A DNA stretch of 33,238 nucleotides from positions 1 to 33,238 of the forward strand of contig JAGRGB010000214.1 of NCBI GenBank assembly GCA_020445745.1, given 5' to 3'. Within the stretch, counting starts at the first letter, position 1, and each line of letters opens with the position of its first letter. Of the stretch, positions 10,104 through 33,238 are shown piece after piece. Made by a program: the position numbers and the translations under genes. The DNA comes from Rhodocyclaceae bacterium (GTDB taxonomy: Bacteria; Pseudomonadota; Gammaproteobacteria; Burkholderiales; Rhodocyclaceae). Below the pieces are notes generated by a model, which saw nothing but the letters and a program-made list of their open reading frames with translations, was not told the origin of the DNA and searched no databases.

Positions 10104-11528
10104 TCACTCGACCGCGATGGTCCCCATCATGCCGCCGGCGGCATGCTCCAGGATGTGGCAGTGGAACATCCACTCGCCGAGATTGTCGGCGACGAAGGCC
10201 ACGTCCACCGATTGCCGTGGCGCCATCAGCACGGTGTCGCGCCAATCCTGCTCGACCACCGGCCGGCCGTCGACGCCGACGACCCGGAAGAAATGGCCGT
10301 GCAGGTGCATCGGGTGGGCAAAGTCGGTCTGGTTGATCAGCCGCAGCACGACGTGGTCGCCCTTGCGCACGTAGAGCAGGGGGTCGTGCAGCAGCGCATG
10401 TTCGTGCTGGGCGCTGAAGTTCATGGTCCAGGCGAGCTTCTCCTTTTCCATGATCTCCTGGATATTGGTCGGCTTGCCGTCGATCATGCCGATCACCGGC
10501 GAGCCGCGCATGCCGCCCTCGAACACGATGTAGTGGTCGATCGCCTTGGCGACGTCGGGCTCGGGCAGATCATTGGCAGCGAGTTGCATCGGCGCACCCA
10601 GCGGCTTGTCGCGCAGCGGTGCGTCGTCGAGGTAGCTGACCCTGGCGATCTGGCCGCGGCTGCGCCGGTCCACGTCCAGGACCTTGTGCTCGCTGCCCGG
10701 CGCCGCCATGAAGTCCACCACCAGGTCGACCCGCATGCCGGGGCCGAGATCGACGGTCTCCAGTTCGCGCGGCTTGATCGCCTGGCCGTCGAGGGCCACC
10801 GCGTGCAGCGTGTGCCCGGCCAGCCTGAGGCGGAAGATGCGGGCCGACGCAGCGTTTATCAGGCGCAACCGCATGCGCTCGCCGGAGCGCACCGCCAGCG
10901 CCACCTTCTCGCCCGCCTGCTGGCCGTTGACCAGCACGACGTTGCCCAGGCGGCCGTCGTTGGCGATGTCGAGAATCCGGCCGAAATCATTGATCTGGCG
11001 GCCCTTGGCGTCGACGCGCACGTCCGACAGCACCCACACCACCTCGCGGTCCACCTCGATCGGCGCGTCCTCCTCGACGATCAGCGGGCCGTACAGACCC
11101 CGCGGCACCTGCTCGAAGCTGATCTGATGGGGGTGATACCAGAAGGTGCCGGAATCCTTCACCTCGTACTCGTAGCTGTACATCTCCCCCGGCTTGATCG
11201 GGTACTGGGTGACGTAGGGAACACCGTCCATCGCGTTCGGCACCCGCAGCCCGTGCCAGTGCACCGTGGTATCGATGCCGGACAGGTCGTTGTTGACGAC
11301 GACCTTGACGCGATCACCCTTGCGAAAGCGCAGCTCCGGCCCCGGCACCGAACGGTTGAAGGCCCAGAAGTCGGTCATCGGGCCGTCGGGGGCAAGGGCC
11401 TGCTCGAAATGGCCAGCGCTGAGCACGAACTCGCGGGACCCCGCAGCCGCGCGGGCGATCCCCGGCAAGGCGGCGAGACCCGCCGCGGCAGCACCCGTCT
11501 TCAGGAAATCCCTTCTGCTCGTCGTCAT
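10104..11528 (-). CDS. Tat-exported multicopper oxidase
   Basis: A 474-residue three-cupredoxin-domain blue copper oxidase (laccase/CueO-like). The N-terminus has a twin-arginine signal, TSRRDFLKTGAAAAGLAALP, predicting folded export to the periplasm. All four copper motifs are present: HWHG (90-93), YHPH (131-134), HPMHLHGH (405-412) and HCHILEH (456-462), followed by Met467 as the likely type 1 axial ligand. This is a complete type 1 plus trinuclear site, so oxidation of a substrate with reduction of O2 to water is expected; the substrate is unknown. Three domains and the trinuclear motifs argue against a two-domain NirK nitrite reductase. It is the last gene after the PilJ-N protein (40-base gap), probably cotranscribed. 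Confidence 0.92.
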   Translation of the reverse strand: MTTSRRDFLKTGAAAAGLAALPGIARAAAGSREFVLSAGHFEQALAPDGPMTDFWAFNRSVPGPELRFRKGDRVKVVVNNDLSGIDTTVHWHGLRVPNAMDGVPYVTQYPIKPGEMYSYEYEVKDSGTFWYHPHQISFEQVPRGLYGPLIVEEDAPIEVDREVVWVLSDVRVDAKGRQINDFGRILDIANDGRLGNVVLVNGQQAGEKVALAVRSGERMRLRLINAASARIFRLRLAGHTLHAVALDGQAIKPRELETVDLGPGMRVDLVVDFMAAPGSEHKVLDVDRRSRGQIARVSYLDDAPLRDKPLGAPMQLAANDLPEPDVAKAIDHYIVFEGGMRGSPVIGMIDGKPTNIQEIMEKEKLAWTMNFSAQHEHALLHDPLLYVRKGDHVVLRLINQTDFAHPMHLHGHFFRVVGVDGRPVVEQDWRDTVLMAPRQSVDVAFVADNLGEWMFHCHILEHAAGGMMGTIAVE

Positions 11529-18520: not shown

Positions 18521-21103
18521 TCAGCCGCCACCGGCCTTGTGGCGGCGCAACTGCAGCATCGCCACCAGCGCCAGCAGTATCGTCGCCGGTATGAACATCA
18601 GTTGCTTCGGCGGCCGCTCGGCTTCGACCCGGATATCGAGGATCTGCCAGTCGAAATCGAGGCCGGCCTGCTGTGCCGGGCTGCCGAACGTGACGTTGTC
18701 GGCGAGCACCTTGCCGTCCTCGATGCGGGTCTCGAGGCCGGCGTTCATCAGCCGCTCCTGGCCCGATCCAGACGGCCCCAACGGCAGTTGCACGGCTTTT
18801 TCGACCAGATCCCCGTCGATCGTCTCGCCCTTGACCATCATCACCAGCTTGCCTTCCGCGGGCACCTGTTCGGCAAACTGGACGATCTCGGCGGCCGGCA
18901 CCACGCGGGTCGGCTCATACACCATGTCCCACCAGTAGCCCGGGCGGAAGAAGGTGAAGGTGACCAGCAGCAGCGCCGCCGACTCCCACAGTCGGCTGCG
19001 GGTCAGCCAGTAGCCCTGGGTCGCGGCAGCGAACAGCAGCATGCCGACCACGGCCCCGACGATCACGACGATCAGTTCGAACCAGCCATCGATGCCGATC
19101 AGCAGCAGCTGCGTGTTGAACACGAACATGAACGGCAGGATCGCCGTGCGGATGTCGTACATGAAGCCCTGGATGCCGGTCTTGATCGGGTCGGCCTTGG
19201 CGATCGCCGCCGCGGCGAAGGCCGCCAGGCCGACCGGCGGCGTGTCGTCGGCGAGGATGCCGAAATAGAACACGAACATGTGCACTGCGACCAGCGGCAC
19301 GATCATGCCTTCGTTGGCCGCCAGCGTCACCACCACCGGCGCCATCAGGCTGGACACCACGATGTAGTTGGCGGTGGTCGGCAGGCCCATGCCGAGCACG
19401 ATGCAGATCGCCGCAGTGAAGATCAGCGCCAGCATCAGGTGGCCACCCGAAATCAGTTCGACGAACTCGATCATGACCTGGCCGATGCCGGTCAGCGTGA
19501 TCGTGCCGACGACGATGCCGGCCGCGGCGGTCGCCACGCCGATGCCGATCATGTTGCGTGCGCCGATCGCCAGCCCGTCGATGCAGTCGTCGATGCCCTG
19601 GCGCAGCGTGCCGGCGGCAGGCTCGTGGCGGAACCGGGCGAGCAGCGGACGCTGGGTCAGCACGATCCCGATCATCAGCACGGTCGCCCAGAACGCCGCC
19701 AGCCCCGGCGAGAAGCGCTCGACGATCAGGCACCACATCAGCACCACGATCGGCAGCAGGAAATACAGGCCGACCTTGACCGTGGGCCCGACCTCCGGCA
19801 ACTCCAGCACCGGGTCGTTGGGGTCGTCCATCTCCAGTTCCGGATAGCGGGCAGCGAACTTGAGCAGGCCGACATACGCGGCCGCGATCAGCAGCGCGAC
19901 GATGTAGATCGCGGCACCGCCGGCCAGCGTCTTGATCCAGCCGATGCCGTAGTACACCACCAGGCCGATCGCACAGGTGCCGGCGACGACGCCGGCGAAG
20001 CTCGCCAGCTTCTGGGCCAGGGTCGACCGGGTCCGGCGCGGCAGGCCCTTCATGTCGGCCTTCAGTGCTTCCAGGTGGACGATATAGACCAGCGCGATGT
20101 AGGAGATCACCGCCGGCAGGATCGCGTGCTTGATGACCTCGATGTAGCTTATGCCGACGTACTCGATCATCAGGAACGCCGCAGCCCCCATCACCGGCGG
20201 GGTCAGCTGGCCGTTGGTCGAGCCGGCCACCTCGACCGCGCCGGCCTTGGTGCCGGGGAAGCCGACCCGCTTCATCAGCGGGATCGTGAAGGTGCCGGTG
20301 GTCGCGACGTTGGCGATCGACGAGCCCGAGATCAGCCCCGTGGCGGCCGAGGCCACCACCGCCGCCTTGGCCGGTCCGCCGCGCATGTGGCCGAGCAGCG
20401 CGAACGCCATCTTGATGAAATAGTTGCCGGCGCCGGCCTTCTCGAGCATCGCGCCGAACAGCACGAACAGGAACACGAAGCTGCTGGAAACGCCGAGCGC
20501 GACGCCGAACACGCCTTCGGTGGTCAGCCATTGGTGCGACATCACCTTCGACAGGCTCTGGCCCTTGTGGGCGATGACCTCCGGCATGTAGGGGCCGAAG
20601 AAGGTATAGACCAGGAACACCGTGGCGACGATCATCAACGGCGGACCGAGGGCGCGGCGGGTCGCTTCGAGCAACAGCACCATGCCGCAGATGCCGACCG
20701 CCAGGTCCACCGGGGTGGGGGCCCCCGAGCGCGCCGACAGCTCCGTGTAGAACAGGAAGATGTAGGCGGCACTGGCGGCGGCGGCGATCGCCATGACCCA
20801 GTCGGCGATCGGGATGTGCTGGCGCGGCGACGATGCGAACGCTGGATAGGCGGTATAGGCGAGGAACAGCGCGAAGGCGAGGTGGATCGCGCGCACCTCG
20901 GTATCGTTGAACACGCCGACTCCGGCCATGAAGGGCAGCGGCGACGCCACCCAAAGCTGGAACAGCGACCAGACCAGCGCCGTGCCGAACAGGATCCGTC
21001 CGGGCAGGCCCGGCGGATGGCGTGCGCCGCTGTCGCTCTCGGCAACCATCTCCTGCAGTTCGCGATCGGTGTCGCGCACATCGCTGTCTGGTGTATCCCG
21101 CAT
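18521..21103 (-). CDS. Fused TAXI-TRAP transporter permease with DUF3394 tail
   Basis: An 860-residue inner-membrane protein combining the small (4-TM) and large (12-TM, DctM-like) TRAP subunits, the arrangement typical of TAXI systems. The N-terminal about 45 residues are cytoplasmic and acidic. The large-subunit core shows SGSSIANVATTGTFTIPLMK and GSTNGQLTPPVMGAAAFLM, and a second repeat with GMGLPTTANYIV and DDTPPVGLAAFAA. These paired half-site loops bind Na+ and substrate. The last about 170 residues are a DUF3394-type periplasmic domain with a PDZ-like segment (VTFGSPAQQAGLDFDWQI) and a final membrane helix. It works with the receptor encoded upstream. Substrate not predictable. Confidence 0.93.
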   Translation of the reverse strand: MRDTPDSDVRDTDRELQEMVAESDSGARHPPGLPGRILFGTALVWSLFQLWVASPLPFMAGVGVFNDTEVRAIHLAFALFLAYTAYPAFASSPRQHIPIADWVMAIAAAASAAYIFLFYTELSARSGAPTPVDLAVGICGMVLLLEATRRALGPPLMIVATVFLVYTFFGPYMPEVIAHKGQSLSKVMSHQWLTTEGVFGVALGVSSSFVFLFVLFGAMLEKAGAGNYFIKMAFALLGHMRGGPAKAAVVASAATGLISGSSIANVATTGTFTIPLMKRVGFPGTKAGAVEVAGSTNGQLTPPVMGAAAFLMIEYVGISYIEVIKHAILPAVISYIALVYIVHLEALKADMKGLPRRTRSTLAQKLASFAGVVAGTCAIGLVVYYGIGWIKTLAGGAAIYIVALLIAAAYVGLLKFAARYPELEMDDPNDPVLELPEVGPTVKVGLYFLLPIVVLMWCLIVERFSPGLAAFWATVLMIGIVLTQRPLLARFRHEPAAGTLRQGIDDCIDGLAIGARNMIGIGVATAAAGIVVGTITLTGIGQVMIEFVELISGGHLMLALIFTAAICIVLGMGLPTTANYIVVSSLMAPVVVTLAANEGMIVPLVAVHMFVFYFGILADDTPPVGLAAFAAAAIAKADPIKTGIQGFMYDIRTAILPFMFVFNTQLLLIGIDGWFELIVVIVGAVVGMLLFAAATQGYWLTRSRLWESAALLLVTFTFFRPGYWWDMVYEPTRVVPAAEIVQFAEQVPAEGKLVMMVKGETIDGDLVEKAVQLPLGPSGSGQERLMNAGLETRIEDGKVLADNVTFGSPAQQAGLDFDWQILDIRVEAERPPKQLMFIPATILLALVAMLQLRRHKAGGG

Positions 21104-21222
21104 CTCGATTCTCGCCTGTGGTGGCGCGGGTGCAGCGCGCCCTCCCGCCGGTTCGGTGGATTTCGGGGGTCGTCAGCGGCGCCCGTCCGCCGCGGAGCGG
21201 CACCCGCCCTGGCCCGGAGCTG

Positions 21223-21249
21223 CCGGCGGCGCAGGGGCAGCGCCGCCGG
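21223..21249 (-). promoter_or_regulatory. 10-bp hairpin between receptor and permease genes
   Basis: CCGGCGGCGC (21223-21232) pairs perfectly with GCGCCGCCGG (21240-21249) around a 7-base loop. It begins 9 bases after the receptor stop codon in the 155-base gap before the permease. No U-run follows. Such intercistronic hairpins usually protect the upstream message or partly attenuate, giving more binding protein than permease. Confidence 0.55.
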
Positions 21250-21258
21250 ACCTCCCGC

Positions 21259-22230
21259 TCACATCAGGCCGGCTTCCTTGTAGTACTTGGCCGCGCCGTC
21301 GTGCAGCGGCGCCGACAGGCCGTCCTTGACCATCTGCTCCTTCGTCAGGTTCTCGAAGGCCGGATGCAGCCGGAGGAAGTCGTCGAAGTTCTCGAACACC
21401 GATTTGACCACCTGGTAGACCGTCTCGGCCGGGGTGTTGGTCGATGATACGAAGGTCGCGCCGACACCGAAGGTCCGCGTGTCGTCGGGGTTGCCCTGGT
21501 ACATGCCCCCCGGAATCACTGCCTTGCGGTAATAGGCATTGTCGGCGACCAGCTTGTCGATCACCGGCCCCTCGACGTTGACCAGGACCGTGTCGCAGGT
21601 CGTCGTCGCCTCCTTGATCGAGCCGGCCGGGTGTCCGACCGTATAGACCATCGCGTCGATCTTGTTGTCGCACAGCGCCTTCGACTGCTCGGCCGCCTTC
21701 AACTCCGAGGCCAGCGCGAAGTCGTCCATCGTCCAGCCCTTGGCCGCCATCACCACTTCCATGGTGCCGCGCTGCCCCGAGCCTGGATTGCCGATATTGA
21801 CCCGCTTGCCCTTCAGGTCATCGAAATTCTTGATGCCGGCATCGGCCCGCGCGACCACGGTGAAGGGCTCGGCATGGACCGAAAACACCGCCCGCAGTTC
21901 CTTGTTGGGACCCTGTTCCTCGAACTGGCTGGTGCCGTGATAGGCGTGGTACTGCCAGTCCGACTGGGCGACGCCCATGTCCAGCTCGCCGGCGCGGATG
22001 GTGTTGAGGTTGTAGACCGAACCACCGGTGGACTCCACGGAGCAGCGAATGCCGTGCTCCTTGCGCCCCTTGTTCACCAGCCTGCAGATAGCCCCCCCGG
22101 TCGGATAGTAGACGCCGGTAACGCCGCCGGTACCGATCGTGATGAAGGTGTCGGCGGCCAGCGCCAGCGTCGAGGCGCCGGTCAGGGCGGCAGCAAGCAT
22201 GGAAGCGAAGACAAACTTTCTGGTCTGCAT
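21259..22230 (-). CDS. TAXI-family TRAP transporter solute-binding protein
   Basis: Periplasmic substrate receptor of the TAXI class (TIGR02122-like). The 323 residues start with a signal peptide ([27 protein letters not shown]). The mature protein has the family N-terminus [20 protein letters not shown], then [27 protein letters not shown] and [12 protein letters not shown]. The start at 22230 is supported by a strong AGGAGGAG (22235-22242). Characterised TAXI receptors bind small carboxylates or amino acids such as glutamate; the ligand here is unknown. Order receptor-permease-Usp on one strand suggests one operon. Confidence 0.93.
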
Positions 22231-22287
22231 GTAACTCCTCCTGGTAGGTGATCGAGTCGAGTGCGGTTGCCGGAGCACACGCGCCGG

Positions 22288-22323
22288 GGCCGGGGCCGGA
22301 GCCGTCCGGCCGGCGCCCCGGCC
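22288..22323 (-). promoter_or_regulatory. G+C-rich inverted repeat upstream of the receptor gene
   Basis: GGCCGGGGC (22288-22296) and GCCCCGGCC (22315-22323) are perfect 9-base complements around an 18-base loop, 58 bases before the receptor ATG. The 236-base gap between the DadA-like and receptor genes holds no gene. The repeat may be a leader hairpin or the end of the DadA transcript, but chance is possible in such G+C-rich DNA. Confidence 0.3.
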
Positions 22324-22466
22324 ACAGGATCATCGGCGCCTGCGACAGGCGACGAACACGGTTGACGGCACCTTCCGCCGGTAGCGGGAAGCCGTTCCAT
22401 CGTTTAAGGATATACCCCGAAACCGCTGTCTGCCGCGCCAATGGCCGATCCGCAGGCAAAAAACGG

Positions 22467-23795
22467 TCACCGGAGCGCCGCCCTGGCGGCCCCTCGGCCT
22501 CCGCAATCGCCGCGCGAGGCCTCCCCGTCGCGCAGTGCCGCCGCCCCACCGGGCGCGAATGCCGCATCCGGCACCGGCGCGCCGCGCCCGGCCATCCGCG
22601 CCGCCAGCAGTCCGGCGCAGCCGGCCGCGAGGGTGAAACCGAGCGCACCGTGGCCGACGTTCAGCCACAGGCCGTCGATGGTGCTGTCGCCGACGATCGG
22701 CGTGCCGCCGGGCGTTGCCGGCCGCAGGCCGGCCCACGGTCGCAGGTCGGCGAGATCCACCGCCGCACCGAACCAGTCGCGGGTCTCGCGCGCGAGGGTC
22801 GCGATCCGGCCGGCAGGCGCCGAGGCGTCGTAGCCGACGATGTCGGCCATGCCGGCCACCCGCAGGCGATTGCCGATGCGCGCATAGACGATCCGGCGTC
22901 GCTGGTCGGTCACGCTGACCGCCGGCACACCACCAGCCTGCACGATTGCCGGACTGATGCTGTAGCCCTTCAGGGGATAAAGCGGCAGGCGGACGCCGAG
23001 CGGTCGCAACAGGTCGGCAGCATGGACGCCACTGGCGATCACGCAGGCATCGGCCTCGATGCGGCGCCGGTCGGTGCGCAGCGCGCGGAAACGGCCGCCC
23101 GATGCCTCGATCGAGTGCGCGGTCTCGGACAACAGGACGCGGGCCGGCGCGGGATGGGCACGCAGGCCGTGCTCGAAGGCCTGGCACAGCGCCAGGCAAT
23201 CGCCGACTTCCTCGTCCGGCGTGAAGATGCCACCGACCAGTTGCGGCGCGACCCGCGCCAGCGCCGGCTCGATGTCGCGACAGCCGCGCCCGTCGAGCAC
23301 CTGCCGGGGTGCGCCTTCCGATTCCGACCGCGCGAGCCCGCGGCACGCCGCTGCGAATGCGTGCCGATCACGATAGACGACCAGCTTGCCGTTGCGCCGC
23401 CAGCCGAAGTCGAACGCGGGATCACCGGCCAGTGCTCCGACCTGCTGCCGGCTGTAGCGCGACAGCAGCGTCAGTGCTGAGATCGACGCGGCGTGGTCGC
23501 GTCGGTTGCAGGCACGCAGGAATGCCGCCAGCCACCGCCATTGACCGGGATCGAGACGGGGACGCAGGCGCACCGCGGCGTCGCGGCCGAGCAACCAGTG
23601 CGGATAGCCGGTGAATAGCGCCGGATCGGCCAGAGGTGCGACGTGGCGGTAGGACAACTGTCCTCCGTTGGCGTGGCTGGCGCCGAGACCGACTGCATCG
23701 CGCGATTCGACCAGGCTTACCGCATGCCCGTCCCGCTGGAGGTACCAGGCGGTCGCCAGGCCGATGATGCCGCCGCCGACGATACAGATTTCCAT
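22467..23795 (-). CDS. DadA-like FAD-dependent amino acid dehydrogenase
   Basis: A 442-residue FAD oxidoreductase of the DAO/DadA superfamily, probably oxidising a D-amino acid (or related amine) to the oxo acid and passing electrons to the membrane. The N-terminal dinucleotide-binding motif GGGIIGLATAW follows MEICIV. The DadA-type signature GASHANGGQLSYRHVAPLAD appears near 38-57, and the C-terminal FAD-contact block has LWLNVGHGALGFTLAAG. A low-complexity, Arg/Gly-rich tail of about 30 residues follows. MEICIV at 23795 is preferred to upstream starts because it begins the Rossmann strand. It is divergent from a LysR gene that likely controls it, and upstream of the TRAP receptor on the same strand. 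Confidence 0.85.
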   Translation of the reverse strand: MEICIVGGGIIGLATAWYLQRDGHAVSLVESRDAVGLGASHANGGQLSYRHVAPLADPALFTGYPHWLLGRDAAVRLRPRLDPGQWRWLAAFLRACNRRDHAASISALTLLSRYSRQQVGALAGDPAFDFGWRRNGKLVVYRDRHAFAAACRGLARSESEGAPRQVLDGRGCRDIEPALARVAPQLVGGIFTPDEEVGDCLALCQAFEHGLRAHPAPARVLLSETAHSIEASGGRFRALRTDRRRIEADACVIASGVHAADLLRPLGVRLPLYPLKGYSISPAIVQAGGVPAVSVTDQRRRIVYARIGNRLRVAGMADIVGYDASAPAGRIATLARETRDWFGAAVDLADLRPWAGLRPATPGGTPIVGDSTIDGLWLNVGHGALGFTLAAGCAGLLAARMAGRGAPVPDAAFAPGGAAALRDGEASRGDCGGRGAARAALR

Positions 23796-23893
23796 ACCAT
23801 GAAGCTCACTTTGATTTGGCCGGAAATTCGGCCTGACGCATTTCATGATAGGGCTTGCAAGGGAGAATCGGGTTTCGGATGATTGGGATAGTC

Positions 23894-23908
23894 ATACCTT
23901 TAAGGCAT
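23894..23908. promoter_or_regulatory. LysR-type T-N11-A operator at the lysR start
   Basis: ATACCTTTAAGGCAT is a near-perfect palindrome (one mismatched pair) containing T-N11-A, the LysR-family box. It ends 2 bases before the first ATG of the LysR gene, inside the 115-base divergent gap with the DadA-like gene. The position suggests autorepression of lysR. A second dyad, GGCCG-N6-CGGCC (about 23818-23833), lies nearer the DadA-like gene. Confidence 0.6.
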
Positions 23909-23910
23909 GG

Positions 23911-24849
23911 ATGATGCGCCTGCGCCAGATCGAAATCTTCCGCGCCGTGATGCTCAGCGGTTCGGTCAGCGCCGCGGCGCGCATGCTCCACGTATCACAA
24001 CCGGTGGTTTCGCGAATCGTCCGGCATGCCGAACAGTCGCTGGGCTTCGCCCTTTTCGAGCGCAGCCGTGGTCGCCTCGTGCCGACCCCGGAAGCCGAAG
24101 CCCTGTACTGCCAGGTACGGCGCAGTTGGACCGAGATCGAGCGCATCGACGCACTGGTCGGCAGCCTGCGCCAGGGTGGCGCCAGCGGATTGCGCATCGC
24201 AGCGACGCCGACCCTTGCCGCCAGCCTGCTGCCGCAGGCGGTCGCGGCACTGCAACGGCAATATCCGGCGATGCAGTGCGACCTGTGGGCAATCCATACG
24301 GCGGAGATCGAGCAGCGACTCGCCACCCAGGAGATCGATGCCGGCATCGCACTGGAACCGCCCGAACGGGTCACGGTGGCGGTCTCGCAGCTTGCCGATA
24401 CGGAGATCCTGCTGGCCGTGCCGCAAGCCTGGTCCATGACGGTGACGCCCAGCCGGCGGCTACTCGCGGACCGCCCGTACATCGCGCTGGCCGAGAGTAC
24501 GCCGCTGGGCGACGCACTGACCGGCCTGCTCGAGCGCGCCGGCTGGCAGGCCGAAGCCGGCCTGCGGGTGCAGACCTACCGGATGGCGGGATCGCTGGTC
24601 GAGCAGGGCGCCGGCCATGCGTTCATCGACGGCTTTACCGCGGTCGGCCTCGACCCCGACAAGGTCGCGCTGTTCCGCATCCGTCCGTCGCTGCCGGTTC
24701 ATCTGCACCTGATGCGGGCAAGCACCGCCGCCCCGTCGCTGACCCTGCCGCGTCTCGACAAGGAGTTGCGCAGGGCGGCACTCGCATTGCTCGCCGAACT
24801 ACCGGCACGCCTCCAGCCCGACTCCGCGCTGCTCGACGGCGGCGACTGA
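23911..24849 (+). CDS. LysR-family transcriptional regulator
   Basis: A 312-residue LTTR. The N-terminal winged helix-turn-helix is clear (MRLRQIEIFRAVMLSGSVSA, then ARMLHVSQPVVSRIVRHAEQSLGFALFER, about 2-55), followed by a linker helix and the two-lobed effector domain (about 92-300; GLRIAATPTLAASLLPQAV). Tandem ATGs at 23911 and 23914 are both possible starts. It is divergent from the DadA-like gene with an LTTR box between them, the classic layout for a regulator of the adjacent catabolic gene. Effector unknown; it could be the substrate of the DadA-like enzyme or of the TAXI transporter. Confidence 0.92.
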   Translation: MMRLRQIEIFRAVMLSGSVSAAARMLHVSQPVVSRIVRHAEQSLGFALFERSRGRLVPTPEAEALYCQVRRSWTEIERIDALVGSLRQGGASGLRIAATPTLAASLLPQAVAALQRQYPAMQCDLWAIHTAEIEQRLATQEIDAGIALEPPERVTVAVSQLADTEILLAVPQAWSMTVTPSRRLLADRPYIALAESTPLGDALTGLLERAGWQAEAGLRVQTYRMAGSLVEQGAGHAFIDGFTAVGLDPDKVALFRIRPSLPVHLHLMRASTAAPSLTLPRLDKELRRAALALLAELPARLQPDSALLDGGD

Positions 24850-27423: not shown

Positions 27424-28422
27424 TCAGGCATTGCCGGGCGGCGCCGGCCTCCGGCTGCGAGCATCCCACTGCCGCTTGTAGCGGGTGTCCAGTTCGGCGA
27501 GGGCGTCGGTGACCGCTTCCAGCTCGGCCAGCTCCGGAAATCGCCCACGATTGCCGGCGTCATACCAGGACGTCATGGCCTGCTTCAGCGCGGCGCGGCG
27601 TTCCGCGGTTGCGGCGATCTGGCGCTTCAGCGTCGCCATGGCCCCGGCCCCGATGTCTGCCACCGCGTAGCGGACGCCATCGCCGAACAGGCGGGTGCCG
27701 CCACCTTCGCTGGCGATGGTGGCAGCCCGCCCGGCATCTATCGGCAGAACACCTGCGATGAAGTCGATGCCGAAGTCGGCGAACCCGGGCCACCACGGCA
27801 CGGACGGCCCCATCAGCACGGTGACTGCGTTTGCGGCCAGCTCGGCCAGCCGCGGGAAGGTCTTGTTGATCAGCGACGTGGCGGTCAGGAATACCCAGTC
27901 GGCCGCGGGAACCAGGTATTCGGCAGCGGGATCGGGCAGGTCGTCGCCGGCCGGCTGTCGCTCCAGTACGGTGACGTCGAGCCCGTCGGTCAGCGCGTCC
28001 AGCCCCGGGTAGCGACCGACGACCACGACCTTGCGCCGCTCGAGGCAGGGACGGAAATGTTCGAACACCGCCAGATTGGACGGAGCCGTGCCGCAGATCG
28101 GTACCGCCCGTGCCATCAGCGCATTGCCCGGCCCGTTGATTACCGCGTTGGCGGCGGCCAGCCCGACGGTGGCTTCGAAGGGGTCCCAGGACCTCATCCA
28201 GGCGGCCACCTCGGCGGCCGGGCGGCCCGCCACGGTACCGGGAAAGCGGAGTGTCCTGGAAGCGAGGCCGGGGCTCTGGGCAAAGCCGATGGACTGCGCG
28301 GTGCGGCAAAAGGTCCAGGTCAGCCCGAGGCAAAGCTGATCGATGCGCGTGCCGGTGCCGGTGCCGAGGCTGGCGAGGATGCGTTCGTAGACCAAGTGTG
28401 GGCAGCTGACCGGGGCACTCAC
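27424..28422 (-). CDS. DUF4213-DUF364 (putative metal-chelation domain) protein
   Basis: A 332-residue protein with an N-terminal enolase-N-like DUF4213 region (about 10-110; GLTWTFCRTAQSIGF, then GRPAAEVAAWMRSWDPFEATVGLAAANAVIN) and a Rossmann-like DUF364 region (about 115-265; KVVVVGRYPGL, DWVFLTATSLINKTFPRLAELA, VTVLMGPSVPWWP). Pfam labels DUF364 'putative heavy-metal chelation', but no member's reaction is settled. A helical C-terminal extension of about 60 residues follows. The start is GTG 28422, overlapping the previous stop as GTGA; longer open frames upstream are shadows. It is the last gene of the four-gene operon. Confidence 0.82.
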   Translation of the reverse strand: MSAPVSCPHLVYERILASLGTGTGTRIDQLCLGLTWTFCRTAQSIGFAQSPGLASRTLRFPGTVAGRPAAEVAAWMRSWDPFEATVGLAAANAVINGPGNALMARAVPICGTAPSNLAVFEHFRPCLERRKVVVVGRYPGLDALTDGLDVTVLERQPAGDDLPDPAAEYLVPAADWVFLTATSLINKTFPRLAELAANAVTVLMGPSVPWWPGFADFGIDFIAGVLPIDAGRAATIASEGGGTRLFGDGVRYAVADIGAGAMATLKRQIAATAERRAALKQAMTSWYDAGNRGRFPELAELEAVTDALAELDTRYKRQWDARSRRPAPPGNA

Positions 28423-28748
28423 GGCGTCTTCTCCGCGCGCCGCAGGCGCAGTCCGCCCTTGAGCATGACCAGGTCGTGCAGATCGCACAGCATGAAGTGG
28501 CGATTCGCCGGATCGCCGAAGTGGGCCACGGTGGCGGGCTGACCGTCGTGATAACGGCGGGCGACGAGGCGAAACGCTTCCGGCAGGGACCGGTTGTACG
28601 GCGAGGGCCGGACCAGCAGGCGGATCACCTGCTCGAAAAGCATGGCATAGCGGTCGCCGTCCGGCTCCCGGTAGATCGATCCGAGGCCCTCGCCATATGT
28701 CCCGAAGAGCCGGATGTAGTCGCCGACGTCGGGCTGCCGCGAACTCAT
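28419..28748 (-). CDS. 109-residue orphan protein of the four-gene operon
   Basis: I do not recognise this protein. It has no signal peptide or membrane segment and is rich in Arg, Leu, Asp and Tyr, with segments such as GDYIRLFGTYGEGLGSIY (N-terminal), RPSPYNRSLPEAFRLVARRY (middle) and DPANRHFMLCDLHDLVMLKG (near the C-terminus). One Cys (in FMLCDLHD) is followed by two His-containing motifs. Both ends overlap neighbours by four bases (ATGA with the nitroreductase gene, GTGA with the DUF364 gene), which is strong evidence that it is a real, cotranslated gene. It is probably a small soluble partner or adaptor. ATG 28754 is an alternative start. Confidence 0.7.
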   Translation of the reverse strand: MSSRQPDVGDYIRLFGTYGEGLGSIYREPDGDRYAMLFEQVIRLLVRPSPYNRSLPEAFRLVARRYHDGQPATVAHFGDPANRHFMLCDLHDLVMLKGGLRLRRAEKTP

Positions 28749-30424
28749 GACCATCCACCTGCGGTCCACCGCCGTGCTGCCAGGTGCCCGTGGGCAGATT
28801 CGCTGAGCAGGCGTGCGTCGTCGAGCGCGCGTCCAACGGTGAAATGGTAGATCACCTGCCACCGGGCTCGCACATCGCTCGCCAGGCCGAGCACGCTCAG
28901 AACCTCGTCGTCGAAGAAGCAACCGATGCCGGTGCCCTGCAAGCCGGCCGCCTCCGCCTCCAGGTACAGGACCTGGCCGATCAGCCCGGCTTCCCAGTGC
29001 AACCGCCTCCAGGCCCAGGCGCCTTCGTCGCGCAGCACCTGCCCGAGGTCGGCGAGCATCGCCAGCGCGAAGGCACCGTGACCCGCGATGCCCTGGTGAC
29101 AGCTCAGACCGGAGGCGGTGTGTCGCAAGTCGGCCGGCGCCCGCACGCGATGGAGCGGCACAGCGTCGCCCGCCAACGACTGTGCTGCGCGCTCGCTGCC
29201 GCCGATCGCCTGCAGCAGCGACCGACCGCGCTCGCCGCCGCGCGGCAATACGTAGAGACCGGGGTCGAGGCCGTCGACGCGATGGGCGAAGACCGCCAGA
29301 TCGATCGCCGGCGGGTAGGGAAAGGCGTCGAACGGAACCGCGCCCCTCGCCGCCAGCGTGCGCGCCAGCACCCGCCGGAACGAGGCCGCGGAAATTCCGG
29401 TGGTGGCGTCCATGCGCTGGGCGCTGCGGCGCGAGCGGATCAGGCTCGCGGCGTCGACGTCGCGCACCGCCGGCGCCACCGCGCCCGGCTGCGTCGGTGC
29501 CGGCCACGCCCGCTGCATGACCAGGTCCGGCTTGACCGTGGCCGGCATCACCCGCGCGATCTGGGGCCACACTACCGATTCCGCGCTGAGGCGGCTGGCC
29601 TGCCCTTGCCAATGGGACCACGCGGCGGCCAGCACCGCCCAGTCCGGCGCGTCGTCGACGCCTTCGCCGATGAGCGCGATCATCTCCGGTTGCTCGGGCT
29701 CGGCGCCGGCGAAATCGGCGTCCCGGTCCAGGCCCAGCAGGCCCGCGAGTTGCTCGTCCCCGGGTTCGGGATCGGCGCGCAACGCCCAGCCGAGCGCCGC
29801 TGCCGCATAGCGCGCGGCGCCGAGCGCGTGGCCGACGTCCAGTTGGCAGTAGCGATAGGCCCGGGCGCCGTACTTCCAGGCTTCGCGCCAGACGATGCTG
29901 CTCCACGCGATCGCGCCGAAGCTGCGGGGGTGGGCCCGCTCCAGCGCCCGCGCCGCCGCGGCGGGCAGCTCGGCCCGGCGTTCCAGCGCGTGCTCGTGGG
30001 GGGCGTAGTGGTAGAGGCCCGGCGTGATCGTCGCGGACACCGCGCGCCACAGCAACAGATAGCCTTCGGTGGGATGGAGGTTGCCGCTGGAGGGGTTGTT
30101 GCGCAGCGCCCAGCGCTCCGCGCCAAGGCGCTTCCAGGCGGAGAGGCCGAGGGCCAGTTCGAGGAACAGGCCGAGGCTGCGCTCGTCGACGGGCTGAGGC
30201 CGCGCCGGTTGCAGATGGAGCGCATCAAAGCTGCCCGGACCGCCACCGTCGATCAGCGGCAGTTCGAGCGCCGCCGCCGGGCGCCAGCGCCGGAACGGAT
30301 CCGGCTGGGCATCCCAGTCCAGGTAGCCCGGGCCCGGCGCATAGCCCCGCAGATGGTGCTTGGTGACCTCGTGATAGGCCACTACCGCGTCGATCCGGCT
30401 GTCACCGCCCGGCACGCGGCTCAT
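28745..30424 (-). CDS. Tandem nitroreductase-fold protein, SagB-type dehydrogenase family
   Basis: A 559-residue protein made of two nitroreductase-fold halves. The N-terminal half (about 10-260) has the SagB-like FMN-site pattern LRNNPSSGNLHPTEGYLLLW and GLYHYAPHEHAL; the C-terminal half (about 300-540) has SLIRSRRSAQRMD, GLYVLPRG, and the late motif GQVLYLEAEAAGLQGTGIGC followed by FFDDEVLSVLGL. SagB-type enzymes are FMN oxidases that turn azolines into azoles in some peptide natural products, but many relatives lie outside such clusters. No YcaO gene or precursor peptide is present here. ATGA overlaps join it to the Fe-S protein (30421-30424) and the orphan (28745-28748). Confidence 0.83.
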   Translation of the reverse strand: MSRVPGGDSRIDAVVAYHEVTKHHLRGYAPGPGYLDWDAQPDPFRRWRPAAALELPLIDGGGPGSFDALHLQPARPQPVDERSLGLFLELALGLSAWKRLGAERWALRNNPSSGNLHPTEGYLLLWRAVSATITPGLYHYAPHEHALERRAELPAAAARALERAHPRSFGAIAWSSIVWREAWKYGARAYRYCQLDVGHALGAARYAAAALGWALRADPEPGDEQLAGLLGLDRDADFAGAEPEQPEMIALIGEGVDDAPDWAVLAAAWSHWQGQASRLSAESVVWPQIARVMPATVKPDLVMQRAWPAPTQPGAVAPAVRDVDAASLIRSRRSAQRMDATTGISAASFRRVLARTLAARGAVPFDAFPYPPAIDLAVFAHRVDGLDPGLYVLPRGGERGRSLLQAIGGSERAAQSLAGDAVPLHRVRAPADLRHTASGLSCHQGIAGHGAFALAMLADLGQVLRDEGAWAWRRLHWEAGLIGQVLYLEAEAAGLQGTGIGCFFDDEVLSVLGLASDVRARWQVIYHFTVGRALDDARLLSESAHGHLAARRWTAGGWS

Positions 30425-31782
30425 GGCCCACCCCGCGCTTCCAGGTGCTGGAACAGGATCGACGCCAGATGGCGCCCGCGGTGGTCGCCCTGACTCTTCA
30501 TCTGCTGACGGCACGAAAAGCCATTGGACATCACGGCCGCATCCGGTGCCGCCCTGAGCGCCGGCATCAGCGCCTGTTCGGCGATCGCCACCGAGAACGC
30601 CGCATGTTCCGCCTCGATGCCGAAGGTCCCGGCCATGCCGCAGCAGCCCGCGTCGACCATCTCGAACTCGAGGTCGGGCACCATTCGCAACACGCGGCGC
30701 ACCGCCTTCATCGCCCCCACCGCCTTCTGGTGGCAGTGTCCGTGGACCAGCAGCCGCTGCCCAGCCGCGCTCTTGAGCGGTATTTCGAGGCGCCTGGCCA
30801 TCAGTTCCCGGGCCAGGAACTCCTCGAACATCAGCACGGCGCGTCCGACCACCGCCATCTCGGCGTCGAGGCCCAGGGTCTGGGCATCGTCGCGCAGTCC
30901 GAGCACGCACGAGGCCTCCAGGCCGACGATCACGCGCCCGGCGTCGACGTGCGGTTTCAGCGCGGCGAGCATGCGGGCCGCTTCGGCACGGGCCTCGTCG
31001 ACGAACCCCTGGGCCAGATAGGTGCGACCGCAGCACAGGGGCCGGTCCGGCTGTTCCGCATCCGGTGTCGCTTCGGCCACCCGCAGCCCGTAGCCGCCGG
31101 CGGCCAGCACCGCCCAGGCGGCCTCGGCGATCTGCGGCTCGAACTGCCGGGTGAAGGTATCCACCAGCAGCACGACCTCGGGCATTCCCGCGCGGCCGGC
31201 GTGGCGGGTTCGACCCGGCCCCGGGAAGGGATCGCGTGCGGGCTCCGGCAACGGCCGCGCTGCCGACAGCCCCAGCCCCCGCTCAGCCACGCGGGCCACG
31301 AGCGCAAAACGGTTGCGCCAGCGGATCAGCAAGCGCAGCCACCGGTGTCGATGCAGCCATTGCGGCAAGCCAGCGAACAGGCGGCTGCGCAGGTCGGGCC
31401 CTTGCCGCGCCACCCGCTGGGCCAGGTATTCGGCCTTGATCAGGGCCATGTCCACATGGGCCTCGCACTCGCGCTTGCAGCCCTTGCAGGCCAGGCAAAG
31501 GTCCATCGCCTCGGCCAGCTCCGGGTCGGCGAGGGCCTGCTCGACCAGGTCGCTCGACAACGCCGCCTTGAGCAGGCGCACGCGACCACCGGTGGACAGT
31601 CCGGGGTTGCCGCTGAGCTGGAAGCTGGGGCACATCACCTGCCGGCCCCGGGTCTCGCAGATGCGGCTGTTGATGCAGGCCGCCACCGCCTTGGCGAAGT
31701 CGCCGCCGTGCTTGGGAATGTCCGCGTAGGCGTCCCCCATGCCGGCGTCGCGGTAGGCGGACCAGTCCAGATGTGTCTTCAT
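30421..31782 (-). CDS. Fe-S / CCG-domain oxidoreductase subunit (GlpC/LutA/YdiJ-C-terminal-like)
   Basis: A 453-residue soluble protein. The N-terminal ferredoxin-like part has Cys36, Cys42 and Cys51 (MCPSFQLSGNPGLSTGGR) and the cluster CLACKGCKREC (Cys96, 99, 102, 106), fitting two [4Fe-4S] clusters as in the C-terminal half of D-lactate dehydrogenase-type FAD/Fe-S fusions. Two CCG-type cysteine-rich domains follow, with CCG at 250-252 and CCG at 380-382 plus a CHQK motif before the latter, as in GlpC, LutA and heterodisulfide reductase subunit B. The FAD-oxidase partner usually fused or adjacent is absent here. MKTHLDW at 31782 is favoured over an in-frame ATG at 31875. First gene of the four-gene operon. 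Confidence 0.85.
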   Translation of the reverse strand: MKTHLDWSAYRDAGMGDAYADIPKHGGDFAKAVAACINSRICETRGRQVMCPSFQLSGNPGLSTGGRVRLLKAALSSDLVEQALADPELAEAMDLCLACKGCKRECEAHVDMALIKAEYLAQRVARQGPDLRSRLFAGLPQWLHRHRWLRLLIRWRNRFALVARVAERGLGLSAARPLPEPARDPFPGPGRTRHAGRAGMPEVVLLVDTFTRQFEPQIAEAAWAVLAAGGYGLRVAEATPDAEQPDRPLCCGRTYLAQGFVDEARAEAARMLAALKPHVDAGRVIVGLEASCVLGLRDDAQTLGLDAEMAVVGRAVLMFEEFLARELMARRLEIPLKSAAGQRLLVHGHCHQKAVGAMKAVRRVLRMVPDLEFEMVDAGCCGMAGTFGIEAEHAAFSVAIAEQALMPALRAAPDAAVMSNGFSCRQQMKSQGDHRGRHLASILFQHLEARGGP

Positions 31783-32096
31783 GCCGCTCGTCGGTTCCTT
31801 GCAGTCCCCATCGGAGATGCAAGGGATGCGCCAGCCTGCCCGCCTCGCTCCCGCCATCGGCGGCGATCCCGGCATCGTCCCGGATTACTTCGGCGTCCCC
31901 GCGGCACGGGCTCACGATGCCCCTGTCGGATCTCCTACAATCGGCGCGGACACGACACGGAAGCGCCATCCGCGGCCGCGCCGCCGATCCGGCGATGCCC
32001 AGGCGCCGGCCGTGCCCGGCTGCCAACGGAGACCGCCGCCTGCCGGATCGCTCGAACGCGCCGGGGTCCCCGCGGCGGAAATCCCGCAGCCGGGAT
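31783..32096. other. 314-base gap upstream of the four-gene operon
   Basis: Leader/promoter region of the operon on the minus strand; no gene recognised. No convincing -10/-35 pair was found on the minus strand. On the plus strand TACAAT (31936-31941) looks like a -10 hexamer but has no good -35 and no gene downstream. An inverted repeat lies next to the operon start (31797-31824). Confidence 0.5.
31797..31824 (-). promoter_or_regulatory. Inverted repeat in the four-gene operon leader
   Basis: CCTTGCA and TGCAAGG (7-base perfect complements, 14-base spacer) lie 15 bases before the ATG at 31782. On the minus strand the proximal arm includes GCAAGGA, the only ribosome-site-like sequence before the gene, so a hairpin here could hide it; alternatively it is a protein-binding site. 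Confidence 0.4.
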
Positions 32097-32585
32097 TCAG
32101 CCGCGCGCGGCTTGCCGCGCCAGCCCCTCCTCGATCATTTCCGGCCGCAGGATGCGCAGCCGCCCACGCACGAGGCGGTGGCGCGACAGCCGCAACAGGG
32201 CCTTGTCGCGGCTGATCAGCAGCGGCGCGCCGGCGGCCACGGCCAGCTCGAGGAACTTCTGGTCATCGGGATCCCTGCAGGCCGGCAGGACCGGGGCGGG
32301 CGTCGCCGCGAGGTCGATGCGCCGGCAATGCGCCAGATAGACGTCGGCGATGCGGCGCTGCCTCTCGGGCGTCAGTTCGAAGCGGGGGTAGGCCAGCACC
32401 CGGCAAAGTTCCGTGATGGTCCCCTCGGAAGCCAGCGGCTCGAGGATGCCATCCGCCACCAGTGTGCGCAGGCGGACGAGGCCCGGGTCCTCGAACAGCC
32501 ACAGCGCGAGCACGGTATTGGTGTCGAGCACACAGGCTGCCGGCAACGGCGGCAGGCCTTCGGTGATCGGCTGTGGCGCGTTCAT
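32097..32585 (-). CDS. PIN-domain protein (PIN_3 / COG1569-like), no antitoxin beside it
   Basis: A 162-residue PIN-domain nuclease-like protein. The acidic metal site is visible: Asp21 (VLDTNTVLALWLF), Glu59 (TITELCRVLAYPRF), Asp105-Asp108 (CRDPDDQKFLELAV) and Asp127 (LLISRDKALL). The RVLAYPRF and DPDDQKFLELA blocks match the family often annotated as the toxin of PIN toxin-antitoxin pairs. No small antitoxin gene lies on either side. The ATG at 32585 follows the U-run of the phaC terminator by only a few bases and has no ribosome site, so it may be leaderless or expressed by read-through. Confidence 0.8.
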   Translation of the reverse strand: MNAPQPITEGLPPLPAACVLDTNTVLALWLFEDPGLVRLRTLVADGILEPLASEGTITELCRVLAYPRFELTPERQRRIADVYLAHCRRIDLAATPAPVLPACRDPDDQKFLELAVAAGAPLLISRDKALLRLSRHRLVRGRLRILRPEMIEEGLARQAARG

Positions 32586-32638: not shown

Positions 32639-33238
32639 TCAGGCTGCCTTCTTGCTGTCCACGCGCATCTTCACGTAGGAGCCCGGCGCGTCCTCGATCG
32701 GCTTGAGCTTGCCCTTGGCCGGATCGCGCGACGGCGCCTTGGCGTCGTCGTGGGCGGTGACCCAGTCCTGCCAGTCCACCCACCACGAGCCGGCGTGCTG
32801 CTGGGCCTTGGAGAACCATTCGTCGGAGGTCTTGGGCAGCTTGGCAGCCGGGTTGATCCAGAAGCCGTACTTGTTGGCCGCCGGCGGGTTGATGATGCCG
32901 GCGATGTGACCCGAGCCGCCGAGCACGAAGCGGGTCGGGCCGCCGAAGACGGTGGCACCCATGTAGGTGCTCTTCCACGGCGCGATGTGGTCTTCGATCG
33001 CCGAGATGAAATAGCACGGGATCTTGATCTTCGACAGGTCGATCTTGACACCGTCGATCTCGATGCCGCCCGGTTCGATCAGCCGGTTCTCCAGGTACAT
33101 GTTGCGCAGGTAGAAGCTGTGCATGGTCGCCGGCATGCGGGTCGAGTCGGAGTTCCAGTAGAGCAGGTCGAACGGGAACGGATCCTTGCCCATCAGGTAG
33201 TTGTTCACCACGAAGGACCAGATCAGGTCGTTGGCACG
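32639..33238 (-). CDS. phaC: Class I poly(3-hydroxyalkanoate) synthase, C-terminal part
   Basis: Polymerises (R)-3-hydroxyacyl-CoA into PHA storage granules. Only the last 199 residues are in the window and the frame runs off the right edge. Visible hallmarks are RANDLIWSFVVNNYLMG, DPFPFDLLYWNSDSTRMP, the catalytic Asp in AIEDHIAPW and the catalytic His in GSGHIAGIINPP. The catalytic Cys lipase-box lies upstream, outside the window. The Lys-rich end and the Trp-rich WFSKAQQHAGSWWVDWQDW segment are usual for class I enzymes. It ends at a strong terminator. Confidence 0.96.
   Translation of the reverse strand, partial: RANDLIWSFVVNNYLMGKDPFPFDLLYWNSDSTRMPATMHSFYLRNMYLENRLIEPGGIEIDGVKIDLSKIKIPCYFISAIEDHIAPWKSTYMGATVFGGPTRFVLGGSGHIAGIINPPAANKYGFWINPAAKLPKTSDEWFSKAQQHAGSWWVDWQDWVTAHDDAKAPSRDPAKGKLKPIEDAPGSYVKMRVDSKKAA

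Follow-up and report, generated by a model that had tools for sequence, protein, structure and literature searches.

An overlapping four-gene operon of a Rhodocyclaceae bacterium as a likely NifA-controlled accessory of nitrogen fixation

The stretch of DNA analysed here (the window, 33,238 nucleotides [nt]) is contig C167 of the genome assembly of a Rhodocyclaceae bacterium (GCA_020445745.1; 4.88 Mb in 217 contigs; G000). Its minus strand carries four genes, here designated A, B, C and D (31782-27424; Table 1), which the original prediction had described as one fully overlapping operon. The open reading frames of the window and all three gene junctions agree with that description: neighbouring genes share four bases, ATGA at the A/B (GCCATGAGC) and B/C (GTCATGAGT) junctions and GTGA at the C/D junction (GCCGTGAGT). 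Because four-base overlaps are frequent in bacterial operons, they are little proof when taken alone.

Table 1. Genes of the operon and putative regulatory sites upstream of it (window positions)
Feature	Position	Strand	Basis or remark
Gene A, stand-alone iron-sulfur (Fe-S)/CCG protein, 453 residues	30421..31782	-	Pfam/NCBIfam
Gene B, tandem SagB/ThcOx-type nitroreductase, 559 residues	28745..30424	-	Pfam/NCBIfam
Gene C, 109-residue protein whose family has no Pfam model	28419..28748	-	homologues in other genomes
Gene D, DUF4213-DUF364 protein, 332 residues, GTG start, extra C-terminal stretch	27424..28422	-	
NifA-type upstream activator sequence (UAS), TGTAGGAGATCCGACA, minus-strand reading	31924..31939		TGT-N10-ACA
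sigma54 -24/-12 promoter-like site, TGGCGCATCCCTTGCA	31818..31833	-	51 nt upstream of the A start codon (ATG)

Gene A passes the Pfam cut-offs for Fer4_8, Fer4_17 and CCG. It resembles GlpC and the C-terminal Fe-S half of YdiJ-type dehydrogenases, which combine flavin adenine dinucleotide (FAD) with Fe-S clusters, and has the cysteine motifs and the CCG domain in common with both. However, it is a stand-alone protein that stays far under the family cut-offs of GlpC (PRK11168; 149.7 of 278) and YdiJ (119.9 of 1350), and that of GlcF is missed as well (59.5 of 333). Fourteen cysteines are invariant in the nine full-length orthologues aligned (the truncated sequence from locus L144 was left out). 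The absence of an FAD partner, to which attention had been drawn earlier, stands in a limited form: the fused FAD half is lacking in these nine sequences, and no FAD half is found among the four genes. Gene B contains two nitroreductase stretches and exceeds the NCBIfam model for SagB (TIGR03605; 87.2 bits, cut-off 78.4). Its sequence family includes the SagB/ThcOx dehydrogenases and the tandem nitroreductase of PDB entry 3eo7, which has a similar length (511 residues). In contrast to the SagB/ThcOx systems, there is no peptide-substrate gene among the four, and B has cysteines at positions 193, 442 and 502 that are at least 95% conserved among 45 tandem nitroreductases; the motifs NPSSGNLHP, KYG, RYCQ.D.GH and TGIGC reach the same level of conservation in the 45 B sequences. 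The earlier description of a unit with redox-type proteins is supported.

Both DUF4213 (7e-19) and DUF364 (3e-37) are found in D above the Pfam gathering scores. Over ~245 residues D is homologous (2e-34) to Dhaf4260, the DUF364 (PF04016) protein of known structure (PDB 3l5o; PMC2954201), from which it differs by ~80 further C-terminal residues, by three changed pocket positions and by belonging to a subgroup associated with nitrogen-fixation (nif) genes. When nine pocket residues of Dhaf4260 (Thr133 not among them) were positioned manually in the alignment, six were found to be kept in D (G46, N92, G136, E154, T180 and T188), whereas A48, P51 and N186 replace G39, R42 and D180. Passages of the structure paper describe a genome context of molybdenum, vanadium, tungsten and iron transport, argue for an enzyme linked to one of these metals and propose, from the pocket and this context, small-molecule chemistry of a condensing or hydrolysing type for DUF364 (PMC2954201).

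Gene C had been regarded as an orphan but turns out to belong to a small family whose members often lie inside nif clusters. It was detected in five of the 250 genomes of an order-level sample, in three of 302 other genomes of the class sample and in four of 377 other genomes of the phylum sample, each of the latter four having at least one copy inside or beside nif genes. The four order-sample copies outside the source genome have no A, B or D within the surrounding 16-19 kb. Elsewhere, C has nifZ genes within 10 kb (G427), shares a 4.5-kb contig with a divergent B and an ankyrin gene (G421), or lies next to an ArsC/Spx-like gene (one copy in G497, the other being near weak NifL-type and response-regulator matches only). 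C and D adjoin in G580 and G583, and D and modC of G577 overlap at their ends, modC being followed by modB, C and the nif genes (modC and modB both score above their cut-offs). These three genomes, which belong to one family (L257-L264), have two or three C copies each, some of them away from core nif genes. No match to C was obtained on plasmids. A relationship of C to RfaH was considered and rejected, as the matches were weak (20 bits, where the cut-off is 124, and E values of 0.12 and 0.41 in PDB); the 119-residue hypothetical protein encoded before D in Methylococcus EFPC2 was likewise rejected as a homologue, C giving no match there.

The region upstream of A suggests how the operon may be regulated. 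The sequence TGT-N10-ACA, which we take to be the consensus of the NifA-type UAS, occurs only once in the whole window, 157 nt upstream of the ATG start codon of A, and the -24/-12 site lies 106 nt downstream of it. A related UAS consensus is quoted in a passage of PMC3916325. Pairs of a UAS and a sigma54 site 60-300 nt apart had a mean frequency of 0.02 per sequence among 300 first-order Markov sequences of window length. The same layout was found before nifH in L133 and L096, before nifB in L135 and, within the source genome, before the IscA/IscU/IscS-like operon in its nif cluster (contig C9). Both sites precede A in five of its seven best orthologues (the source genome included), and in Methylococcus EFPC2 the UAS is present before A with a looser -12 element. 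Upstream of a contrast set of 30 B genes, which included the operon-internal B of the window, we found three UAS and no strict -24/-12 site, a few of these regions being anchored inexactly. In the upstream scan as a whole, loci with a shortened flank (L066 and L022, perhaps also L012, L020 and L039) are anchored off the gene start.

Recurrence of the same set in distant genomes, which the original prediction had itself named as the test of a functional unit, was indeed observed. The complete set A-B-C-D is present in another Rhodocyclaceae metagenome-assembled genome (MAG; L144; 82, 77, 78 and 75% identity, A being cut by the contig start) and in the alphaproteobacterium Filomicrobium (L145; 64, 52, 68 and 60%), and B-C-D is found in a gammaproteobacterial MAG (L146; 47, 66 and 61%). 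Overlaps recur in part among these relatives of 47-82% identity: the A/B and B/C junctions of Filomicrobium are ATGA and its C/D junction is TAATG (1 base), L144 has ATGA at A/B, GTGA at C/D and a gap of 149 nt between B and C, and L146 has ATGA at B/C, with an uncertain start of D. Wherever the contig holds the start of the operon, it is preceded by a UAS-sigma54 pair, located upstream of A in L145 and before B, the first gene of its set, in L146. All four genomes with the set or with B-C-D carry nifA above the cut-off, and nifD is present in the L144 genome, at a contig end, and in the L145 genome. On the single chromosome of Filomicrobium the operon lies at ~3.69 Mb and the nif genes at 1.21-1.23 Mb; the link between them would therefore be one of shared regulation, not of position. 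It had been proposed that finding these genes in unrelated places would mark the unit as accidental, a rule that would be misleading because A, B and C often lie apart in other diazotrophs, in association with the same trait.

The distribution of the genes was followed in the order sample, in which 39 of the 250 genomes were counted as nif-positive (including the source genome, on nifE only and under the cut-off, and G030, partial); A, B and C were enriched among these. The best stand-alone matches to A fell in eight genomes, all nif-positive (P = 2e-7), 22 of 40 genomes with B were nif-positive (P = 7e-11) and so were all five with C (P = 7e-5), although these P values are not to be read literally because the genomes are related, and the groups for the Fisher tests were chosen after the match lists had been seen. 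The A group comprised the stand-alone matches with E < 1e-119 and the partial G024, from 87 genomes with E < 1e-60; most other matches lay in ~1000-residue frames, and G058 (46% identity, 509-residue frame) was left out. The B group was obtained from 46 genomes matched at E 0.001 by dropping six with E > 1e-12 in which part of one domain was covered. D was found in six of the 250 genomes, namely the source genome, two with 32-33% identity and three marginal ones.

The genomic neighbourhoods of these genes point in the same direction. Genes A and B adjoin in G205, and A is found near nifB, nifA and nifL in G111. In G071 the best A adjoins nifB, and one locus combines nifHDK with B, an ankyrin gene and a paralogue of A (42% identity). 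On the nif plasmid of Methylococcus EFPC2, A, B and D are interspersed with nifHDKENX, rnf, nifA and nifL, and nif genes were close by in six of the first 20 B loci examined. In the tree of 45 B sequences, one clade of 20 consists of 18 nif-positive, no nif-negative and two unlabelled rows. A scan of genome contigs with D returned 166 relatives, of which the best 80 were kept, mostly from methanotrophs. Core nif genes lie near D in 64 of these 80 loci (45 of the 51 loci that span 15 kb or more), and for 10 genomes tested among the 16 remaining loci nifD was found elsewhere in nine. The possibility that D substitutes for NifQ was rejected, since every one of the 17 genomes or records with D also has NifQ; among the 48 genomes or records searched it was found in 46, and neither of the two without it (G128 and G200) has a match to D. 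A 119-residue family without a Pfam match (L096:1784-2143) is encoded directly upstream of D in 60 of the 80 loci and lies downstream of the NifX-associated gene in many of them. Another family without a Pfam match, of 143 residues (L096:3279-3710), follows D in many methanotroph loci and is present in 45 of the 80. Two DUF364 relatives from Azospirillum plasmids (matches H19 and H20) stand under a DUF2478 annotation. By eye, a ~285-residue protein with the motif VPYLGPG was also seen to recur beside nif or nif-accessory genes (L242:10742-11593, L239:12801-13664 and L133:13403-14260).

Nif genes were found in the source genome itself, on contigs other than that of the operon. Proteins of Methylococcus EFPC2 matched nifE (55%), nifN (45%), nifX, the NifX-associated gene and nifZ-like and IscS/IscU-like genes on contig C9, which also carries modB (above the cut-off), and nifQ and nifA are located on contig C116. 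Judging by these genes, the source organism is probably a diazotroph whose assembled nif gene set has a gap.

The promoter pair, the recurrence of the set with such a promoter, the enrichment in diazotrophs and the nif genes of the source genome lead us to conclude, with a probability of roughly 0.9, that A-B-C-D belongs to the nitrogen-fixation regulon as an accessory operon under the control of NifA and sigma54. Nitrogen fixation did not figure in the original prediction, whereas the UAS-sigma54 promoter and the co-occurrence with nif genes both point there. Several observations weigh against this conclusion. A UAS alone is expected by chance at a mean of 2.2 per window in the Markov controls, and in G205 and G047 the region before A lacks a UAS and matches the -24/-12 site only in a looser form. 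Strict nif-specificity of B had to be rejected, since 18 of the 40 B genomes lack nifD, and the four B of this operon form a clade of their own (100/99) outside the main nif clade; a common clade of the two is not rejected (approximately unbiased test, P = 0.23), so that the tree neither supports nor rejects a single nif origin of B. Four C loci (L241, L257, L260 and L264) have no core nif gene nearby, three of them, L260 and L264 included, showing weak matches to NifL-type sensors. NifD was not found in the 2.2-Mb MAG with B-C-D (L146) or in the source assembly, where NifH yielded only three short matches of at most 31 bits (nifH was not found) and nifK is cut off, its residues 141-519 running to the end of contig C9 (L143:11410-12558).

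Membership of the regulon is nevertheless well supported by the sequences, whereas the chemistry of the operon is here only proposed. Low fixed nitrogen would lead NifA and sigma54 to switch on the operon along with the nif genes. B would bind flavin mononucleotide (FMN) and exchange electrons, in either direction, with the clusters of A, so that the two would make up a small flavin/iron-sulfur redox couple in which A, having no FAD half, resembles the Fe-S part of an FAD dehydrogenase. D and C together would handle a small molecule, related to molybdenum or to a cofactor, at a stage between molybdate uptake and NifEN/NifX. The joint account, regulation plus this helper chemistry, is in our view the best explanation overall and a likely one. 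For its parts, the redox couple, suggested by the cysteines of A, the nitroreductase motifs of B and the linkage of the two genes, has about an even chance of being right, and molybdenum or cofactor handling by D and C is a tentative assignment, somewhat short of even odds, favoured by the pairing of C with D, the modBC and nifENX neighbourhoods and the DUF364 structure paper. More speculatively, C and D might be an unrecognised pair in the assembly of the iron-molybdenum cofactor beside NifQ, joined to an A-B couple that sets the redox state of an intermediate, with a second lineage of tandem nitroreductases, distinct from that of most sampled nif clusters, having been recruited for the purpose; we consider this rather doubtful.

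A serious rival to molybdenum or cofactor handling is that the operon shields nitrogenase from oxygen or redox stress, B acting as an FMN oxidase that uses oxygen, A linking to the quinone pool, and D and C restoring oxygen-damaged metal. Azole-forming relatives of SagB use oxygen as electron acceptor, and the company kept by these genes fits such a role: B of Methylococcus EFPC2 lies close to nifH in a run with ankyrin, rhodanese, ArsC/Spx-like, Rieske and truncated haemoglobin genes, in L240 the neighbours of C are B and an ankyrin gene, in L242 C is next to an ArsC/Spx-like gene, and rhodanese and ankyrin genes follow D in some methanotroph loci. D, however, accompanies nifENX-type genes and, once, mod genes, and protection from oxygen seems on the whole unlikely, if less so than the alternatives that follow.

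Another possibility, to which we give a somewhat lower chance, is that the operon serves to synthesise a compound for molybdenum or iron uptake, for instance a metallophore or a modified cofactor. D would condense or hydrolyse a pterin-, flavin- or siderophore-like compound, B would oxidise it and A would carry the electrons. This agrees with the DUF364 chemistry proposed in the passages cited above (PMC2954201) and with the six placed pocket residues kept in D, but the other three placed positions differ and there is no transporter or ligase gene among the four.

The likeness of A to GlpC and the C-terminal half of YdiJ might also suggest a reduced FAD/Fe-S system for 2-hydroxyacid oxidation, of the lactate-utilisation or YdiJ type; with scores far below the GlpC and YdiJ cut-offs, no FAD half in the operon and all eight best-A genomes nif-positive, this appears improbable. 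An azole-peptide or other natural-product cluster of the SagB type, suggested by the score of B with the SagB model, is less probable still, as no YcaO was seen among the four products or the eight typed neighbours in the window (the YcaO model was not run window-wide) and the UAS-sigma54 promoter and nif association point elsewhere.

Among the gene sets described in the literature, those closest to the NifA-regulated operon proposed here include azo2278-azo2280 of Azoarcus olearius BH72, three adjoining, uncharacterised genes that were induced 490-, 373- and 443-fold in an RNA-seq study whose authors call the study of their link to nitrogen fixation compelling (PMC8467165). Azo2278 has two nitroreductase domains, and the passage concerned makes no mention of a DUF364 gene (PMC8467165). 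The likeness to A, B and C is one of description; from it we infer that Azo2278 may be a homologue of B, in which case the tandem nitroreductase family would include this strongly induced gene group. The azo2278-azo2280 genes were not found in the text of PMC3916325 or PMC9769520. The Avin_02430-Avin_02390 set of Azotobacter vinelandii is likewise a nitrogenase accessory set dependent on sigma54 and an activator, with a nitroreductase and a transport function, but as described in PMC9542535 it has parts of an ATP-binding cassette transporter, a nickel-binding GTPase and a glutamate-cysteine ligase in place of the Fe-S/CCG protein, C and DUF364, and its regulator VnfA1 is that of the vanadium nitrogenase. 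Passages of PMC2820453 on the nif island of Pseudomonas stutzeri A1501 name no nitroreductase, and the open-access papers searched connect neither DUF364 nor SagB with nitrogenase. Assignment to the nif regulon would place four proteins that lack an assigned function, and would supply them with a likely regulator and with partners that can be tested; if C and D do handle molybdenum or a cofactor, they would add a step to a pathway that there are attempts to rebuild in other hosts.

Elsewhere in the window, a gene for a PIN_3-domain protein lies upstream of the operon (32097-32579), and before it comes a frame that extends beyond the end of the window and has no match in Pfam (32639-33238). The region 18521-24849 encodes a DctM/DUF3394 permease and an NMT1_3 binding protein, a pair resembling tripartite ATP-independent periplasmic transporters, together with a DAO-family oxidoreductase and a LysR regulator; by eye, similar-looking genes flank the operon in L144. 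A multicopper oxidase with a twin-arginine translocation (Tat) signal is encoded at 10104-11528.

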